DNA from: an uncultured Candidatus Saccharibacteria bacterium
Lineage (GTDB): Bacteria > Patescibacteriota > Saccharimonadia > Saccharimonadales > Saccharimonadaceae
Length of the DNA: 62,239 nt
Direction of reading: 5' to 3'
Assembly (NCBI GenBank): GCA_947087275.1
Contig: CAMUBZ010000004.1
Coordinates: forward strand, 1-62,239
The position numbers and the translations under genes are program-made. A model generated the notes under the pieces. That model searched no databases and was not told where the DNA came from. It saw only the letters and a list, made by a program, of their open reading frames with translations. Of the stretch, positions 14,848-62,057 are shown in pieces; the first letter of the stretch is position 1, and each line of letters opens with the position of its first letter.

Positions 14848-15090
14848 TTATCCACTCTCCCACATACCTAATACAGTACTAAGGCAGCGGAGGGGGAAAG
14901 CGAGGTTGCGACCATCCGGGCCGTTCGACGAGTATGCCACTGAAGCACCAAAGGCTAGATTGTAAGAACTAGGAACGGCGGAGCCATTAGCGTGTGTAGA
15001 CGAACCTCGCGACGACCAACCGTAGCCACTAAGGCCAGCGTACCTCAAAGTACCAGCAGTATTTGGCAAGTAGACGAGCCCGCTGCGCAC
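14848..15090 (-). pseudogene. FISUMP-like C-terminal cassette 1 (class 1), no start
   Basis: Read on the minus strand from the 11-bp junction GTGCGCAGCGG (15080-15090). It encodes VRSG, a divergent interior with GYGWSSRGSS and SYNLAF motifs, then FPLRCLSTVLGM. The usual TAG is mutated to TGG, adding WESG before TAA at 14848. The 3' core runs through GGCAGCGG and CTAATACAGTACTAA on the plus strand. It resembles the C-terminal end of the FISUMP/C-type-lectin-like domain. No Shine-Dalgarno or start codon fits, so it is likely a silent cassette. It is convergent to uvrB. Confidence 0.75.
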
Positions 15091-15098
15091 GGGAAACC

Positions 15099-15122
15099 GG
15101 TACAAAAATGCAAAATTGTACC
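15099..15122. other. Hairpin upstream of cassette 1
   Basis: GGTACAA - 10-nt loop - TTGTACC, eight bases upstream of the cassette junction. It matches the pattern seen upstream of the other class 1 cassettes. Confidence 0.6.
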
Positions 15123-15272
15123 ACTTAGCTACGGATTCTAACAGGGACAAAAGGCAGATTATACTGGCACAAAAGTTAAAAAGTGTATCAGTATAATGCA
15201 TTCTAAAACTGGATTATTTTAGTGTTTTTATTCACTTGGTTATACATTTAATCTCTGTAACCCTAAAGTAAA
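15123..15272. other. Spacer between head-to-head cassettes
   Basis: AT-rich, no ORF. It contains isolated TATAAT-like boxes (for example around 15195 on plus and 15156 on minus) without convincing -35 partners. Confidence 0.4.
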
Positions 15273-15303
15273 AACTGAATAAATTTGCTCTTTTTATTCA
15301 GTT
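15273..15303. other. Hairpin upstream of cassette 2
   Basis: AACTGAATAAA pairs perfectly with TTTATTCAGTT (11 bp), three bases before the cassette junction at 15307. Confidence 0.7.
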
Positions 15304-15306
15304 GGC

Positions 15307-15510
15307 GTGCGCAGCGGAAATATTCGAGTATCTATCAGAACTGGGACTTTTAGGTATGCTAGTAACTTTGGCGAGTTTTGGTCAAGTAGAGGTGCGAGCG
15401 TGACAAATGCTCATTATTTCGAATTTACCGATATCACAATGAGACAAGCAGACGCTGCACGTGAACATGCTTTCCCCCTCCGCTGCCTTAGTACTGTATT
15501 AGGTATGTAG
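15307..15510 (+). pseudogene. FISUMP-like C-terminal cassette 2 (class 1), no start signal
   Basis: 67 residues from GTGCGCAGCGG: VRSGNIRV, interior with FGEFWSSRGASV, end AFPLRCLSTVLGM-stop. The 3' core CCGCTGCCTTAGTAC...GTATGTAGGAGTG is intact. It stands head-to-head with cassette 1. The GTG could act as a start but has no Shine-Dalgarno and sits behind a hairpin, so I treat it as an unexpressed C-terminal module. Confidence 0.75.
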
Positions 15511-15671
15511 GAGTGAGATGATAGAAAAGGAATAATTTGCAGGAGTCCCGTAAGTATGTTAAAATGGCAACAATCACCCCACGAAGGGAAAACTTGAGCG
15601 ATAACATGTTCACTTCCAGGGTAGTACCTGGAAAATGTGCATCGTTGTTTGCGGAAAAAAGGAGGAAAGTT

Positions 15672-16440: not shown

Positions 16441-16475
16441 TCTCGGCTCGGTACAGATCTAAACTCATCTTTACT

Positions 16476-16504
16476 TTAGTACTGTATTAGGTATGTAGGA
16501 GTGA
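16476..16504 (+). repeat. Solo copy of the cassette 3' core
   Basis: 29 bp identical to 15488-15516 (TTAGTACTG through TAGGAGTGA) without any cassette body before it. Together they make a direct repeat 988 bp apart around the gene at 15672. Confidence 0.85.
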
Positions 16505-42010: not shown

Positions 42011-42160
42011 GACAATCACGATTGCCTTGAGATACTTAGATTAGTCTATTTGTAGTTGATAGCCTTCGACCAGGTGTAGGCAATGGTTGTGTCCTACAAT
42101 AATAATCTTTAACAACCGATGCATAAAACCGTACCAGTTGTTACATATCTCCACCCACTC

Positions 42161-42367
42161 CTACATACCTAATACAGTACTAAGGCAGCGGAGGGGGAAA
42201 GCGTCGTAACGATAGTAAGTATACGATGGAGTAATTGTGGTGAGAAAGTTTAGATTGTATGCATTAGCCGCTGATGCATACGAACGAGAAGACCAATAGT
42301 GGCTAATTGCTTGGCCACCGCCAAACGTTCCAGAAGCAACACTTGGGTTGATATATCCGCTGCGCAC
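42161..42367 (-). pseudogene. FISUMP-like C-terminal cassette 3 (class 1)
   Basis: Minus strand from GTGCGCAGCGG (42357-42367): VRSGYINPS, then HYWSSRSYASAANAYNLNF, ending AFPLRCLSTVLGM-TAG at 42161. It has the canonical WSSR and AYNLNF of FISUMP-like domains. No start signal; a terminator-like hairpin (42371-42404) is directly upstream. Confidence 0.8.
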
Positions 42368-42370
42368 GAA

Positions 42371-42404
42371 AGACCCTAGCGCTTTTGATTTTTCGCTAGG
42401 GTCT
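42371..42404. other. Hairpin upstream of cassette 3
   Basis: AGACCCTAGCG pairs with CGCTAGGGTCT (11 bp), followed by TTTC and the cassette junction on the minus strand. Confidence 0.7.
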
Positions 42405-42438
42405 GGTCGCATGAATAACAGAGGTAGAGCTAAAATTA

Positions 42439-42468
42439 TACCTTAGCGGTTTTTAAAATTCGCTAAGG
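42439..42468. other. Hairpin upstream of cassette 4
   Basis: ACCTTAGCG pairs with CGCTAAGGT (9 bp), 28 bases before the junction. The stem is similar in sequence to the cassette 3 hairpin. Confidence 0.65.
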
Positions 42469-42496
42469 TCGCATAATATTGAAGCAAGCAATGTTC

Positions 42497-42700
42497 GTGC
42501 GCAGCGGGAATATCCGTACCGACTGGGGTATTATAGAAGCACCTGCTAGCGACGGCGGAATCGTTGCATCGCGTGCTGCTAATGCTGGGTATAGGTATAA
42601 TTTATCTATATATAGTAATGTTATTTCTCCATCTAACGGCCCTTCTTACCGCCTGCACGCTTTCCCCCTCCGCTGCCTTAGTACTGTATTAGGTATGTAG
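42497..42700 (+). pseudogene. FISUMP-like C-terminal cassette 4 (class 1)
   Basis: Plus strand: VRSGNIRTDWGI, divergent interior (IVASRAANAGYRYNLSIY, SPSNGPSYRL), end AFPLRCLSTVLGM-TAG. The WSSR motif is reduced to VASR. The 3' core ends GTATGTAGGTGTG. It is head-to-head with cassette 3, 129 bp apart. An upstream ATG (42491) gives only two extra residues and has no Shine-Dalgarno. Confidence 0.78.
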
Positions 42701-42803
42701 GTGTGGGGGTAAAAGAAAATATAAAACATCACACTTGTGCTTGCTAATTTCATTCAACTTACTCTACGCTTTCTGTAGAGCACGAAGATAGGTTCTGAGT
42801 TGG

Positions 42804-53275: not shown

Positions 53276-53522
53276 CTATGAGAAAAGATCGGCACCCGCC
53301 GCGGTATAATCCAGGCAGCGGAGGGGGAGACCGATGTAACGTTCGTTCGGGCCATTCGACGGGTTGACAGTTGAGGCATTAAAGTTGAGGTTGTAAGCGC
53401 TAGGAATGGCCGAGCCATTAGCGTGGGTAGATGAACCTCGCGACGACCAATCGTAGCCGTTGATGCCAGCGTTCCTAAAAGTACCAGCAGTTACGGTCGG
53501 GTCAATGTTCCCGCTGCGCACG
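53276..53522 (-). pseudogene. FISUMP-like C-terminal cassette 5 (class 2)
   Basis: Minus strand from GTGCGCAGCGG (53512-53522): VRSGNIDPTVTAGTF, GYDWSSRGSSTHANGSA, AYNLNFNAS, NPSNGPNERY, then LPLRCLDYTAAGADLFS-stop. The end after PLRCL differs from class 1 and instead matches cassette 7. Its middle is very close to cassette 1 (WSSRGSSTHANGSA), suggesting gene conversion between classes. Confidence 0.8.
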
Positions 53523-53755
53523 GGACTGCACAGACAAGGGCGACCCGAATGGACCGACACGCATCCGGTCGTAGGCAGAGAAGTTCATTTTGTTAGTGCT
53601 TGGCCGTGACCAAGACCATGCCCGCCCTTCATCATTCTTTTTGTAATCTAAAGGAGAACTTCACGATCTTTTACGGAAGACCTCTAGTGAGCGCAGGAGT
53701 GAACTGGGGCTACTTTCGGGCTCCATGGACAACTTATCCACGTCCTAATTTTAAC
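53286..53755 (-). repeat. Class 2 element, copy A (~470 bp)
   Basis: Shares both ends with 61594-62057: AGATCGGCACCCGCCGCGG at the cassette 3' end, and at the other end GAACTTCACGATCTTT, GGAGTGAACT, CCATGGA and TCCACGTC with TAATTTTA. The interior between the ends differs. Contains cassette 5. Confidence 0.75.
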
Positions 53756-55938: not shown

Positions 55939-55945
55939 ATCATTC

Positions 55946-56155
55946 CTACATACCTAATACAGTACTAAGGCAGCGGAGGGGGAGGCCGAGTAAGCGATTA
56001 CTATTGTCTAATGGATAAACTGCACTAGCATAGAAGGTGAAAAAGTATGCGAGCGTCATCGACGAGGCTGCTCGCGAAGACCACCAGTGGCCATTTTGAC
56101 CAACATATCTGAGCGTGCCAGCAGCATTAGCTAGATTAAAGTGCCCGCTGCGCAC
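55946..56155 (-). pseudogene. FISUMP-like C-terminal cassette 6 (class 1)
   Basis: Minus strand from GTGCGCAGCGG (56145-56155): VRSGHFNLANAAGTLRYVG, GHWWSSRAAS, ASAVYPLDNSNRLLG, then LPLRCLSTVLGM-TAG at 55946. Preceded by a perfect 11-bp hairpin (56168-56192) and convergent with rpsR. Confidence 0.8.
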
Positions 56156-56192: not shown

Positions 56193-56290
56193 AACTTATT
56201 TCTACCTCTGTTTTGTAATATGATTATGTAGTTTTATCATGCTTGTGCTTGGTAAATTTTCTTGATTTATGCTAGTCTGGAGGAATGATA

Positions 56291-56665
56291 ATGCAAAAAG
56301 GTAGAATTGTTATTCCGGGTGGCGTGGCACCATGGCCGCATGAAATGCGAGTGGCGAGGATATTAGCGAGTTTAGGCTACATAGTAGAATTTATTCCCAA
56401 AAGCAATATTAAGACAGCAGATATTTTATTAAACGGGGTAGAGTTTGAGATAAAATCTCCGTTGAGTAATAAATCAAACTCCTTAGAACATGTATTAAAG
56501 AAAGCCCTCCGTCAATCACCCAATATCATATTTGATACATCTCGCATACAAGAAGTCAACGATATCAAAATTAAAAATTTCTTGGCTCATCAGGTTCAAC
56601 AGCGAAAACAAATAAAGCGCATACGACTTATTATGAAGTCTGGAGAGGTCGTTGACATCAAATAG
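56291..56665 (+). CDS. CdiA C-terminal tRNase-like/PD-(D/E)XK nuclease-fold protein
   Basis: 124 aa from ATG 56291 (GGAGG seven bases upstream; ATG 56285 is too close). PWPHEMRVARILASLGYIVEFIP followed by TADILLNGVEFEIKSP carries the D...ExK arrangement of the CdiA_C_tRNase/contact-toxin nuclease group. NIIFDTSRI also fits. No immunity gene, delivery domain or signal peptide is adjacent. It sits between cassette 6 and the cassette scar. Confidence 0.65.
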   Translation: MQKGRIVIPGGVAPWPHEMRVARILASLGYIVEFIPKSNIKTADILLNGVEFEIKSPLSNKSNSLEHVLKKALRQSPNIIFDTSRIQEVNDIKIKNFLAHQVQQRKQIKRIRLIMKSGEVVDIK

Positions 56666-56686: not shown

Positions 56687-56737
56687 ATTGAAGTTCTTGC
56701 ACGGCGCCGAAGGTACCTATCGCAGGGGCTTCTTTTT
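56687..56737 (+). ncRNA. Very short promoter-to-terminator RNA
   Basis: From the predicted start (~56687) the RNA consists almost only of a hairpin GAAGTTCTTGC/GCAGGGGCTTC (11 pairs, several G-U) and a T5 tail ending at 56737. The next base begins GTGCGCAGCGG. Confidence 0.5.
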
Positions 56738-56761
56738 GTGCGCAGCGGGTATGTAGGAGTG
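56738..56761 (+). repeat. Collapsed cassette scar
   Basis: GTGCGCAGCGG (junction, 56738-56748) is joined directly to GTATGTAGGAGTG (class 1 end, 56749-56761) with no cassette body. It looks like a precise deletion or an empty site. Confidence 0.85.
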
Positions 56762-56769
56762 CTATTGTC

Positions 56770-56798
56770 TTGACTTTTATAGGCGTCTGTGTTACAAT
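56770..56798 (+). promoter_or_regulatory. trmD promoter
   Basis: TTGACT (56770-56775), 17-bp spacer ending TGTGT, TACAAT (56793-56798), ten bases before ATG. Confidence 0.82.
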
Positions 56799-56808
56799 AA
56801 CAGTAATT

Positions 56809-57714
56809 ATGCCAAAAATCAAGTTCACCATTATTACGCTTTTTCCAGAGGCTTTGCAGCCTTATCTGGATAGTTCTATGCTGTTTAAGGCGCAAAAACA
56901 GGGAATTATCGAGATTGACTATGTGAATTTACGCGATTTTGGTCTCGGTCCGCATAAGTCAGTGGACGATACGCCGTATGGCGGTGGTGACGGGATGCTC
57001 TTGCGCTGTGAGCCTGTGTTTGCTGCGATTGAGAGTATCAAACAAAATTCTCCCGAGGCGGAAGTGATTTTGCCGACTCCAGTAGGGGTGACTTGGAATC
57101 AGGCTTTGGCTCGGCAATTTGCCGGTATTGAGACAGCTAACAACGAAAACTTAGCAGAAATGGCCAGAGAACGCTCCTTGGCACATACGGATGATGCTGT
57201 TAGAGCTGGACAATATTCTACTATGAGACCATCCGCAGCCAGTCGACAAAACTCGAAGATTTTGTCGACACGTGGCGAGGAAGAGGCGGCTTCCGCCCAT
57301 AACGATGGGCCGGAAGAACGCCGTGTCGTGCAGGAGAATATTGACCAGATGTTAACGGGCTCGCAACAATTGCGCCATTACATCATTCTCTGCCCACATT
57401 ACGAGGGTTACGACGAGCGCATTATGACCATTGTCGATCATCCAATTTCGCTAGGAAATTATGTTCTCACTGGCGGGGAATTACCAGCGCTGATTATCAT
57501 TGACAGTGTGACACGACTTTTGCCAGGAGTATTAGGGGGAGAAACGTCGGCCACGATTGAAAGTTTTTCTTGTGGCGACAATTTGGAATATCCGCAATAT
57601 ACTAAGCCGGCGGACTTCAGAGGTCTCAAAGTGCCAGAAGTGCTGATGTCGGGTAACCACGGGGCTATTGCCAAGTGGCGCGCTGAGCATAGCAATAAAC
57701 AGATCAAATCGTGA
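56809..57714 (+). CDS. trmD: tRNA (guanine37-N1)-methyltransferase with palindromic insertion
   Basis: 301 aa, longer than the usual ~240. TrmD hallmarks: ITLFPEALQPYLDSS, DDTPYGGGDGMLL, HYEGYDERI, ISLGNYVLTGGELPALIIIDSVTRLLPGVL. Methylates G37 of tRNAs with SAM. Between ARQFAG and LRHYIIL there are ~70 extra residues (about 57126-57345) of unusual composition containing two strong inverted repeats. The knot motif GRYEG reads PHYEG. Short-leader promoter. Confidence 0.95.
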   Translation: MPKIKFTIITLFPEALQPYLDSSMLFKAQKQGIIEIDYVNLRDFGLGPHKSVDDTPYGGGDGMLLRCEPVFAAIESIKQNSPEAEVILPTPVGVTWNQALARQFAGIETANNENLAEMARERSLAHTDDAVRAGQYSTMRPSAASRQNSKILSTRGEEEAASAHNDGPEERRVVQENIDQMLTGSQQLRHYIILCPHYEGYDERIMTIVDHPISLGNYVLTGGELPALIIIDSVTRLLPGVLGGETSATIESFSCGDNLEYPQYTKPADFRGLKVPEVLMSGNHGAIAKWRAEHSNKQIKS

Positions 57715-57727
57715 TATAATAAAAACC

Positions 57728-59488
57728 ATGAAAACACAAGCACAAAATCTTTGGCAACGTATTTATAGCATGCTGACGCGACGACAAAAACGCAACTTTG
57801 TTGTGATTTTGATAATTATGCTAATTTCTGCCGGATTAGGCCAACTTCTGCCCGTAGCAATTGGTAGTCTGACAAATGATATCTTGGGACAAGACAGGCT
57901 TGCTTTTTCTAATATAATCCCATTTTTATTCTTTATCCTAGTGGTCGTAGTGGCCAATGAAATTCTCAAGATAATTCGTAGGTTACTTGTAGAAGACACT
58001 AGCACAAGTTACGAAAAAACTGCGCGTTCTAAGGCAATTAGTGCATTACTGCATGCTCCGCTTGATTTTTTCCGGAAAAATATGGTTGGCAATATCCACG
58101 GGCGACTTAATCGTAGCCTTGAAGGCGTGGTGAAACTTATCAAATTACTTTTTATGGATTTTGCGCCAGCCGTTTTTAGTGGTATTGCCGCGGTCATTGT
58201 AATTTTTTCACAGCTTCCAGCACAGTTGGCATTTATGATGCTGCTCGTTGTGCCTATTGGGGTTGCCATTGTTTTGCGCCAAATCTCGACGCAAAAAGGT
58301 ATTCGTGTGCGCTTAATGGAAGAAAAGTCCAATATGGACGGAGCAATGGTGGAGCTAATTAACGGGATTGAAGTTATACGTATTACAAATAATGTTGGTA
58401 TAGAAGTTCATCGATTTGATGTGCAATCAGAAGATTTGCGCCGTGAAGAAATGGCACACCATAAGTCAATGGCATTCTATGACTGTCTCAAATTCGTTAA
58501 TGAGGCGATTTTTACCGTACTAGTAATTGGTGTATCTGCATATCTCGCCAGCGAGCACATGATTAGCGTCGGTGCTGTTTTGACCTCGTATTTATGTTTC
58601 ACGCAGCTGACTACGCCACTGCACGAATTGCATCGTATTCTGGATGAGCTATCGGAGGCTTCAGTTCTGGCAGCAAATTATTTTGAAATTATCGATATTC
58701 CGGAAGATTTTTCCTACAAACTGATATCTGCACCAGAACCCTTAATATCAAACAGGGCTTTTATCGACATTAGTGACTTAAGTTTTTCTTACTCTAATGG
58801 CGATACTATTATCAAAAAATTAAACTTGCAAATTAACGAGGGAGATTTTGTTGGGTTAGTTGGCCCATCAGGGTGTGGCAAATCGTCGCTAATCAAAGTA
58901 CTAACACGGCTCGAGGACTACCAGGAGGGAGAAGTTGCTATCGACGGTTCTAATTTGCGAGATTTATCACGAGAAGATATCTCCAACTTGATAGCCCTCG
59001 TCCCACAGACTCCTTTCTTGATTGCGGCGTCAATCCGTGACAATATTTGTTATGGCGTGCATCGCGAAGTGAGTGATGCCGAGGTAGCCGATGCTGCACG
59101 CCGGGCAAATATCAGTGATTTTATCGAGAGTCTTCCTGACCAGTATGATACAATTTTAGCAGAATCTGGCAGTAATCTATCTGGTGGTCAGCGTCAAAGA
59201 ATTGCAATCGCACGCGTATTTCTACGCAAACCAAGGATTTTGATTCTGGACGAGGCGACTAGCGCGTTGGACAATACGTCTGAGCGTTATATTCAGAGTG
59301 AGATAGAAAAGCTACGTCGAGAAAGTAATACGACCATTATCTCAATTGCGCACCGGCTTTCTACTCTAGAGAATTGTGATACAATTGTTGTCTTTAGTAA
59401 TGGCAAAATCGCACAACAAGGCAAGTTCAATGCTTTGCGTGATGTAGGGGGGATTTTTCGTGACATGTATCTTGGCAAGTTGCGTTAA
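57728..59488 (+). CDS. ABC exporter, fused permease and ATPase
   Basis: 586 aa from ATG 57728, seven bases after TATAAT (57715-57720). Six-helix permease (residues ~20-310), then the nucleotide-binding domain: Walker A GPSGCGKSS, Q loop, signature LSGGQRQR, Walker B ILILDEATSALD, H loop IAHR. Homodimeric exporter of lipid, drug or peptide; substrate unknown. Confidence 0.93.
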   Translation: MKTQAQNLWQRIYSMLTRRQKRNFVVILIIMLISAGLGQLLPVAIGSLTNDILGQDRLAFSNIIPFLFFILVVVVANEILKIIRRLLVEDTSTSYEKTARSKAISALLHAPLDFFRKNMVGNIHGRLNRSLEGVVKLIKLLFMDFAPAVFSGIAAVIVIFSQLPAQLAFMMLLVVPIGVAIVLRQISTQKGIRVRLMEEKSNMDGAMVELINGIEVIRITNNVGIEVHRFDVQSEDLRREEMAHHKSMAFYDCLKFVNEAIFTVLVIGVSAYLASEHMISVGAVLTSYLCFTQLTTPLHELHRILDELSEASVLAANYFEIIDIPEDFSYKLISAPEPLISNRAFIDISDLSFSYSNGDTIIKKLNLQINEGDFVGLVGPSGCGKSSLIKVLTRLEDYQEGEVAIDGSNLRDLSREDISNLIALVPQTPFLIAASIRDNICYGVHREVSDAEVADAARRANISDFIESLPDQYDTILAESGSNLSGGQRQRIAIARVFLRKPRILILDEATSALDNTSERYIQSEIEKLRRESNTTIISIAHRLSTLENCDTIVVFSNGKIAQQGKFNALRDVGGIFRDMYLGKLR

Positions 59489-59511: not shown

Positions 59512-61593
59512 ATGGATTTGTCCGCGGGAATTGAAACGGTCAAGGGCGTTGGCCCCAAGACCGCAGAAATATTGAAGCGCGTCAACCTGCGTACTGTGGG
59601 TGATTTGCTTTATTGTTTACCCCGCGTTTATGAGAACTATCAAACCACGGTCAATATCGAGGATCTGCGCCCGGGCAAGGTGATTATTCGTGGCAAAATT
59701 AGCGATTTGCACGTTGTACGCACCAGTCGCAAGCGCCTGACGCTGACGCAGGGGGTAATTCGTGATGAAACTGGAGCGGTGCGCACGGTTTGGTTTAATC
59801 AACCCTATCGCGCGAAACAATTTGATGAGAAGCGCGAGTACTATTTTACTGGCAAATATGAGCTCAAAAGCGGGCGCTACCAACTCACCTCGCCCTCGGC
59901 CACCTTGGTGCAAGATGTCAATAATGGTACGGCAGCCACTTTTCAACCGATTTATTCCGCCAAAAGCGCCATCAAACCGCAAATGTTCCATAAATTGCTG
60001 GAAAATCTCCGGCCAGAGTTTGCCAAAATCCCAGATTTATTGCCATTTACGGATGGAAAACCGCTTTTTGTAAAACCGCGGGCGCGGGCTGAGGCGCTCT
60101 ATAATTCGCATTTTCCGGAAACTCCCGATGATGCCGAAAAGGGACGGGACTATCTGGCCTACGAGGAGCTATTTGAGTTAATCTTGGCCGCTAAGCTCAA
60201 TAAGCAGGAGAATCAGCGGCTCAGGGCGGAATCGCTCAAATTTAACGCTAAATTTACTCAGGCTGTAGTCAAACATTTGCCGTTTGCGCTCACTGGGGCG
60301 CAGCGCCGAGCAACTTGGGAAATTCTGCAAGATTTGGAGAAAAATGTGCCGATGAACCGCCTTTTGCAAGGTGATGTGGGTTCCGGTAAGACGATTGTGG
60401 CAGCACTGGCAGCCGCTCAGGCCACCCTAAATGGCCACCAGACGGCCCTTTTGGCGCCTACCGCTATCCTAGCCACCCAACATTTTGAAAGCCTCCAGAC
60501 GTTGTTTGCGGGGCTCCAGAAGGCATTTTTGCGCGAATTTGGCAAGAAAATTCGCTTACCGCGCATTGCTTTACTCACTGGTGCCACCAAGAATAAGCGT
60601 ATGCTGAAGACCGCGATTAAGGCGGGCCAAATTGACCTAATTATTGGTACACACGCCCTAATTACTGATGATACTGGATTCAAGTCGCTCGCTTTTTGTA
60701 TCATTGACGAGCAGCATCGTTTTGGCGTGGGGCAGCGGCAAAAATTGCTTCTCAAATCCCCCGACAACACCGCGCCGCACCTCTTAGCAATGACTGCCAC
60801 CCCAATTCCGCGCTCTTTGCAGCTAACTTTGTTTGGCGACCTTGATGTCTCGATTTTGAATGAGCTACCGCCGGGACGACAGCCAATTACCACCAAAATT
60901 TTGGCTGAGACTGAGCAACGCGACGAACTTTATCCCAAAATGCGCGAACTTTTGGCCAAGAAGCAACAGATTTATTGGATTTGTCAGGTGATTGAAGAGA
61001 AAAACTCGGGTACGGCTACGCCTGTCAAGAAGCAAGTGAAGAAGTTGCAAAATTTGTTTCCGCAGGTGAAAGTGGATATGTTGCACGGCAAAATGAAGCC
61101 CGAAGAGAAGGATGCGATTATGGCGCGGTTTGCAGCGAATCGGATTCAGATTTTGGTGTCAACTACAGTAGTGGAGGTGGGCGTGAACGTGCCCAATGCC
61201 AATATGATCGTGATTCAGGATGCGGAAAATTACGGTTTGGCGCAGTTGCACCAGTTGCGTGGGCGCGTAGGGCGCGGTGATCAGCCCGCGAGCTGTTTTC
61301 TCTTGACTACTGGCGAAGGGCGACCATCCAAACGTTTGCGTGAGATGGAAAAATCTACCGACGGGTTTTATCTGGCGGAGGTCGATTTGAAGATTCGTGG
61401 CCCAGGAGAGATTTATGGTTCGCAGCAACATGGTGAGCTTAATCTGCAAGTAGCCAACTTGAATGATACGACTTTGATGGCGCAGGCTAGTCATCATGCC
61501 GGGAATTTCGCCAAAGACCCGGCTGCACTCAAGGATTATCCTGAGCTATCTAGCAGGATTAAGAAATATCAGCAACTCACGACATTGAATTAA
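59512..61593 (+). CDS. recG: ATP-dependent DNA helicase RecG
   Basis: 693 aa. N-terminal wedge/OB domain (VKGVGPKTAEILKRVNLRTVGDLLYCLPRVYENY), Walker A GDVGSGKT, DEQH box in IIDEQHRFGVGQR, TATPIPRSLQLT, C-terminal helicase and TRG motif. Remodels stalled forks. TATAAT (59500-59505) is six bases before ATG (leaderless). The stop codon overlaps the stop of cassette 7 on the other strand. Confidence 0.96.
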   Translation: MDLSAGIETVKGVGPKTAEILKRVNLRTVGDLLYCLPRVYENYQTTVNIEDLRPGKVIIRGKISDLHVVRTSRKRLTLTQGVIRDETGAVRTVWFNQPYRAKQFDEKREYYFTGKYELKSGRYQLTSPSATLVQDVNNGTAATFQPIYSAKSAIKPQMFHKLLENLRPEFAKIPDLLPFTDGKPLFVKPRARAEALYNSHFPETPDDAEKGRDYLAYEELFELILAAKLNKQENQRLRAESLKFNAKFTQAVVKHLPFALTGAQRRATWEILQDLEKNVPMNRLLQGDVGSGKTIVAALAAAQATLNGHQTALLAPTAILATQHFESLQTLFAGLQKAFLREFGKKIRLPRIALLTGATKNKRMLKTAIKAGQIDLIIGTHALITDDTGFKSLAFCIIDEQHRFGVGQRQKLLLKSPDNTAPHLLAMTATPIPRSLQLTLFGDLDVSILNELPPGRQPITTKILAETEQRDELYPKMRELLAKKQQIYWICQVIEEKNSGTATPVKKQVKKLQNLFPQVKVDMLHGKMKPEEKDAIMARFAANRIQILVSTTVVEVGVNVPNANMIVIQDAENYGLAQLHQLRGRVGRGDQPASCFLLTTGEGRPSKRLREMEKSTDGFYLAEVDLKIRGPGEIYGSQQHGELNLQVANLNDTTLMAQASHHAGNFAKDPAALKDYPELSSRIKKYQQLTTLN

Positions 61594-61814
61594 AGATCGG
61601 CACCCGCCGCGGCATAATCAAGGCAGCGGAGGGGGAAACCGTACCAACGGTTATTCAGGTTGGACGGGTTCATCGCGGTATTGAATTCGAGGTTGTACGC
61701 GGTAGCCGAGGTGCTAGAAGTATAAGCACCTGCCCGCGACGACCAGTAGTCAGCATTGTGGCCAGCGTTCCTCAGGACACCAGCAGTCGGTAACTCAAAG
61801 TAGCCGCTGCGCAC
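61590..61814 (-). pseudogene. FISUMP-like C-terminal cassette 7 (class 2)
   Basis: Minus strand from GTGCGCAGCGG (61804-61814): VRSGYFELPTAGVLRNAG, ADYWSSRAGAYTS, TAYNLEFNTAMNPSN, then FPLRCLDYAAAGADL-TAA. Its stop shares bases with the recG stop. In-frame sequence continues upstream to 61859 without a Shine-Dalgarno. Confidence 0.8.
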
Positions 61815-62057
61815 GAATGCGAGCCAAAGCCGAATCATACACCTCGTGAAACAGCCCAAAAACTCTTGCGGCGATAGAAGTTCGCTTACTACTTATTGAC
61901 CATAGCCAATAATAATATCTAGCCTCACCATAAATATCTTTATTATTCTAGAGGGGAACTTCACGATCTTTGATAACGAGAGCCGCCGGCAAGCGGAGGA
62001 GTGAACTCTGGCTGCCCTTAGCGCCCATGGAGATATATCCACGTCTTAATTTTAGCA
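61594..62057 (-). repeat. Class 2 element, copy B (~464 bp)
   Basis: Same conserved ends and nearly the same length as 53286-53755, with a different interior. Contains cassette 7. The stretch 61815-61945 holds no gene. Confidence 0.75.

Follow-up and report, generated by a model that had tools for sequence, protein, structure and literature searches.

The 24 bp at positions 56738-56761 (forward strand) of the 62,239-nucleotide stretch of Candidatus Saccharibacteria DNA analysed here (the window) are, with a probability of roughly 0.8, the footprint of a variable-repeat (VR) cassette of a diversity-generating retroelement (DGR) that was deleted across a short direct repeat, and not the product of site-specific recombination. 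The sequence, GTGCGCAGCGGGTATGTAGGAGTG, is present as the sequence-only reading described it, with 0 matches expected from 100 dinucleotide shuffles, and occurs as a single exact copy in the whole 829-kb genome (G000). It consists of a cassette start, GTGCGCAGCGG, fused directly to a cassette tail, GTATGTAGGAGTG. The fusion is confirmed, and both borders are genuine genome-wide repeats: the start has 80 copies in the genome against 1 for its reversed control, and the tail TAGTACTGTATTAGGTATGTAG has 76 copies at up to three mismatches against 0. The GGG said to be shared by the two borders at the fusion point had to be corrected to GG (start AGCGG, tail TTAGGTATG), the third G being the usual next base of the cassette (GCGGG in 52 of 67 cassettes).

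Table 1. Features of the window that bear on the scar (positions are those of the window; C and a number denote contigs)
Feature	Position	Strand	Remark
Scar (emptied VR cassette), junction of start border and tail end	56738-56761	+	Filled orthologue in the sister species (G130), C7:34950-35175
Start border GTGCGCAGCGG, encoding VRSG, 5' limit of the TR/VR homology	56738-56748	+	80 genome copies; common to VRs and TRs
Tail remnant GTATGTAGGAGTG, stands 3' of the VR in intact copies	56749-56761	+	76 genome tails; flank alignment
Intact partner VR, 69 aa, VRSGHFNL...LPLRCLSTVLGM, inverted relative to scar	55941-56155	-	
CdiA_C-family (PF18451) nuclease-like gene, 126 aa, in VR-pair spacer	56285-56665	+	E 4.8e-12; further VR pairs hold similar genes
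Terminator-like hairpin and TTTTT, between nuclease gene and scar	56690-56737	+	-18.6 kcal/mol, z -2.1
trmD promoter-like site TTGACT, 17 bp, TACAAT, directly 3' of scar	56770-56798	+	Read from sequence
trmD, anchor of the orthologous comparison	56809-57714	+	81-83% identical DNA in the sister species
Second emptied site in the window: isolated tail ahead of tuf that has lost its VR and start	16478-16503 (region 16454-16503)	+	Filled in the sister species, C7:98
Inverted VR pair	14857-15515	14857-15090 -, 15307-15515 +	
Inverted VR pair	42156-42705	42156-42367 -, 42497-42705 +	
VR cassette cut by contig end	62149-62239	-	Last 55 nt also at start of contig C2
TR RNA locus: leader 53648-53741, TR 53521-53312, end CGATCTTT at 53284	53284-53741	-	96 bits
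TR RNA locus: leader 61948-62042, TR 61814-61622	61592-62042	-	95.6 bits

The borders belong to a large set of about 68-70 VR cassettes, mostly gene-less and dispersed through the genome, each with about 65-76 codons between the borders (VRSG...WSSR...AY.L.F...FPLRCLSTVLGM). Most stand in inverted pairs with their starts facing each other. Nearly all carry a GC-rich, IMH-like 3' end, CCCCCTCCGCTGCC, and at a subset of loci the tail is followed by inverted repeats in the form of hairpins with compensating stem changes. At 62104-62077 (reverse strand) and at 11 further loci a terminator-like hairpin after the tail is followed by a second hairpin ending in another TATGTAGGAG. Among the VRs not cut by contig ends none was seen at the 3' end of a coding target gene, in-frame ORFs upstream of the start reaching at most 63 aa in this genome and 78 aa in the sister species. 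The cassettes alone matched no Pfam and no NCBIfam family, and Rfam gave only tRNAs on the stretches searched. The assembly break at the window end (62239) is caused by the repeat; the start of contig C2 and the ends of C3 and C10 also break inside VRs with the common 55 nt. Two full-length PF09603 genes are intact and lack start DNA, and a third stops at the end of contig C13, near the expected start of its variable region; an expressed VR target may be hidden in contig gaps.

A second cassette class lacks the tail. Its members have a conserved 5' leader, promoter-like and structured, and a 3' end, GGTGCCGATCTTT, in which CGATCTTT could base-pair with the leader segment AAAGATCG. These are template repeats (TRs), and their variable positions are AAC/AAT codons. 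Twelve leader RNAs were found in the genome, 11 of them with identified TRs, and the leader covariance model gave 12 copies here, 10 in the sister species and as many as 22 in further genomes of the genus. A leader copy adjoins a reverse transcriptase (RT) gene in the relatives G042, G096 and G013, and in G096 leader RNA and a TR for the same protein segment come directly after the RT. The RT of the genome studied here (C1:1027-2172) is 79% identical to that G096 RT and matches Pfam RVT_1 (E 6.8e-9), its best NCBIfam match being a group II RT far below the cut-off. A search with PF00078 (RVT_1) had found no RT in this genome, suggesting an RT-less relic; since the G096 protein as query found one, the miss was a sensitivity problem. 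The sister species carries the same RT; a further, 502-aa RT on its contig C8 was set aside as a different RT, by eye unlike the DGR family. A gene of roughly 330 aa (331 aa) precedes the RT in G000, G130, G145, G042, G096 and G013, and may encode an accessory protein (Avd or similar), although Pfam and NCBIfam have no family that matches the protein of G000. The association of an RT with a template repeat, by which DGRs are recognized, is found here, and the system is a DGR in Candidatus Saccharibacteria in which the cassettes with tail are the VRs and the second class the TRs.

A pairwise comparison of TRs and VRs gave an ambiguous picture of the mutagenesis signature, since most VRs depart from all TRs at non-adenine bases as well; the adenine signal came from a column-wise test in this genome and from the VRs of the sister species. 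At sites where the TRs agree on an A, the VRs match it in 42% of cases at codon position 1 and in 58% at position 2; for the other bases the figures are 83% and 81% (p 1e-5 and 7e-5). In the sister species a few VRs are near-pristine copies, and one of them (C3:53807) mismatches its template at 14 of 36 adenines versus 8 of 141 other bases. The cassettes are apparently rewritten by a mutation system based on reverse transcriptase. Most VRs of the genome studied here differ at 20-30% of non-adenine sites, and even the best still has 17.5% non-adenine mismatches. Besides adenine mutagenesis, drift, recombination between VRs or outdated templates must contribute. Some VRs are identical at separate loci and must therefore also be copied without mutation. 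Third codon positions vary at conserved VR residues, which points to constraint on the encoded protein.

The scar was compared with the sister species, in which the DNA flanking the scar sites is about 84% identical. The search for filled alleles that the sequence-only reading proposed across strains was run on this species, and upstream of trmD the site holds an intact unit: the start at 34950 of contig C7, a VR and a tail (to about 35175), followed by the trmD promoter, with 200 bp between the end of the start and the tail bases kept in the window. The orthologues of all three scar sites described here, and of the lone tail at 16478, likewise carry an intact VR. The earlier suggestion of a precise deletion is supported by these observations, and the scar is to be regarded as an emptied site rather than a waiting acceptor because the orthologous places are filled by intact units. 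The sister species has about 68 VRs (about 69 start sites) with a slightly different tail, GTATTAGACATG. In its genome, compact pairs at C9:8324-8361 and about nine other places have a centre of 14-16 bp between the facing starts, forming a start-start palindrome. At 16 orthologous VR sites the downstream flanks are on average 84% identical, whereas the VR interiors are 55.1% identical, as are random VR pairs (55.1 +/- 4.1%); two orthologous TRs are 87% identical. The VR sites are stable and their contents turn over. Beyond this species pair, the tail family was not found in the 59 other genomes of the genus searched, except for one match with three mismatches. None of 29 trmD loci of other species has the neighbouring nuclease gene upstream of trmD, and no homologues of the window's upstream genes were found upstream of trmD in 29 other genomes of the genus, where only trmD and recG are common.

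The event is not confined to one locus. A second fusion with the same junction stands at C2:113840, where GTGCGCAGTGG is joined to GTATGTAGGAAAC. A loose search of about 235 kb of the genome (start with up to three mismatches, tail with up to two, gap of up to three bases) found exactly these two places, and none on three shuffles. A decayed third candidate, at C11:32646, is a degenerate form that joins GTGCGCAGTGG to GAATATAGAAAAT at the same kind of position. Each of the three is one half of a VR pair whose other half is intact. At C3:60622-60690 (L064:7623-7690) a VR start is preceded by an inverted piece of tail, ACCTAATACAGT followed by GCGCAGCGG, as if two borders had recombined in inverted orientation.

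How the cassette was lost can be proposed in some detail. We infer that the direction of change was loss, and that the ancestral site upstream of trmD read GTGCGCAGCGG-VR-CCGCTGCCTTAGTACTGTATTAGGTATGTAGGAGTG, as do many intergenic sites and the orthologue in the sister species. About 200 bp would have been lost between a direct repeat at the VR start and the GGTATGT of the tail, leaving exactly GTGCGCAGCGGGTATGTAGG... at the site. This repeat would have been the two bases GG, or all seven of GGTATGT in case the lost VR opened with TATGT like 2 of the 68 present VRs. A VR beginning GGGTATGT (2 of 68; 12 of 68 begin GGTAT) provides a 7-bp direct repeat flanking the VR body. The 7-bp version is hypothetical, and homology of GG only would make two identical junctions less expected. 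Loss between direct repeats gives exactly the junction that is seen at the two independent sites, and the nearby inverted 7-mers GCAGCGG and CCGCTGC could aid slippage by folding the VR out. Another possible source of the right half of the scar is the second TATGTAGGAG, which some loci have beyond the tail hairpins. GGTATGT occurs in 62 of 68 tails of this genome versus none of 68 in the sister species, and the scar counts (two to three versus none) are too small to prove a dependence on tail sequence. The loss would also have removed the GC-rich segment CCCCCTCCGCTGCC, where cDNA integration begins in DGR targets, and with this 3' end gone the site should be a dead target that can no longer be rewritten.

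One alternative to this deletion is site-specific excision, with the cassette released by a recombinase, or by the DGR machinery itself, when start and tail are united at a fixed GG. This could account for the identical junction at two loci, the terminal inverted repeats GCAGCGG/CCGCTGC with a conserved tail, and the nuclease-like gene in the spacer. It is nevertheless unlikely, since emptied sites are rare (two to three scars against about 68 intact VRs, and none found among about 69 start sites in the sister species) and since the emptied site at 16478 has another junction, CTTTACTT joined to TAGTACTG. The retained tail is also not part of the TR/VR homology. In E. coli, DGRs prefer targets that are co-directional with replication, the proposed reason being an exposed lagging-strand template (PMC12875486). 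Short cDNAs could therefore in principle cause deletions. An aberrant homing event, in which a truncated DGR cDNA annealed to start and tail and replaced the VR by nothing, would be of this kind. The tail is absent from the TR, however, so that the cDNA would have no homology to it, and this reading is less probable than excision.

Slightly less credit is due to the reading that there is no fusion at all, only a truncated cassette beginning VRSG-YVGV that is tail-like by chance. Such resemblance does arise: a match to the scar with up to three mismatches at C10:22467 proved to be an intact cassette (VRSGVVGVNDG...) whose start, GGGGTCGTAGGAGTG, resembles the tail by chance. At the scar itself, however, 13 of 13 tail bases match, and 10 at C2:113840, with zero matches in shuffles, and the DNA downstream of the scar aligns to the sequence 3' of the tail in the sister species. 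The least probable alternative is the empty acceptor proposed from the sequence alone, in which the 24 bp are older than the cassette and cassettes insert between the halves. The start border and tail end are indeed intact in the scar, but the orthologous positions are filled, start and tail otherwise occur with cassettes, and no lineage was seen to carry the 24-mer without having cassettes. Nor is the scar conserved in relatives; among 282 loci compared, only the two places in this genome carry its pattern. The claim that the scar marks the borders of the recombining unit holds for the left side, where GTGCGCAGCGG is the edge of TR/VR homology. It does not hold for the right side, because the homology ends at ...CCGCTGCCTTA, 12 bp before the retained GTATGTAGGAGTG. 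The scar is evidence that a cassette slot can die, and on the left it coincides with the border of the rewritten unit.

The gene beside the scar was rightly described as nuclease-like, being of the CdiA_C family (PF18451). Four more VR pairs of the genome have relatives in their spacer, on the start side; relatives also occur at VR loci of the sister species, and they adjoin RT or TR in G145, G024 and G096. PF18451 or similar small genes were located at C2:84088-84447, C11:32710-33096, C2:109061-109315 and C3:53409-53642 of this genome and at the further loci L242:3865-4233, L191:646-996 and L180:3275-3544, in a survey that covered mainly VR and RT loci. A DGR-associated nuclease is a possible role for these genes, and the link is a lead rather than a result. 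In the same neighbourhood, TrmD carries an in-frame insert (57189-57370), part of which (57213-57341) matches dispersed places in G130 (91% at C16:4459), G024 and G145, and which resembles a repeat element inserted in a coding gene. Between trmD and recG stands an ABC-transporter-like gene (57729-59488) that is absent there in the sister species.

Deletion across short repeats (microhomology) is a well-known process that includes the nearly precise excision of palindromic inserts. The proposed loss would resemble it in lying between short direct repeats, in being assisted by inverted repeats and in leaving one repeat copy. The scar itself is an ordinary deletion, and it is the form of the surrounding DGR, with its large set of gene-less paired targets, that is unusual; a limited search of the open-access literature returned no description of such a set. 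Templates and an RT explain the data better than integron gene cassettes, with their attC sites and integron integrase, would. As in the DGR of Bordetella phage BPP-1 and in the DGR clade restricted to Patescibacteria (Roux et al. 2021, PMC8144416), there is an RT gene, structured template-repeat RNAs and adenine-biased VRs at NNY codons. The GC-rich 3' ends of the VRs, behind which many loci have inverted repeats, also recall BPP-1, in which the homing target needs the IMH and a hairpin/inverted repeat 3' of the GC-rich end (PMC3240598). Unlike in these DGRs, a single genome of 0.83 Mb holds about 12 template RNAs and about 68 VRs. The VRs are intergenic, have no upstream gene and are for the most part arranged as inverted pairs, and most of them depart from all known TRs at 20-30% of the non-adenine positions.

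One may tentatively speculate that the DGR, instead of acting on the end of one gene, keeps rewriting a genome-wide gene-less library of about 70 cassettes in inverted pairs, that the pairs are served by a CdiA_C-type nuclease encoded between some of them, possibly the missing target-nicking enzyme of DGRs, that an expressed surface protein draws on the library by recombination, and that the scars are dead slots. As a candidate for a missing DGR component, the nuclease-like genes beside the RT and within VR pairs are testable. Antigenic variation from silent cassettes is established for pilS/pilE of Neisseria and vlsE of Borrelia. The present system shares with these the many gene-less, in-frame C-terminal cassettes with conserved borders and the occurrence of identical cassettes at separate loci. 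It differs in that its cassettes are dispersed and accompanied by templates and an RT, and in that no expression locus with start and tail borders was identified, one full-length gene of the fold ending at a contig end. If the VRs are indeed a donor library, retroelement hypermutation and silent-cassette antigenic variation, normally found apart, would be combined in this genome.
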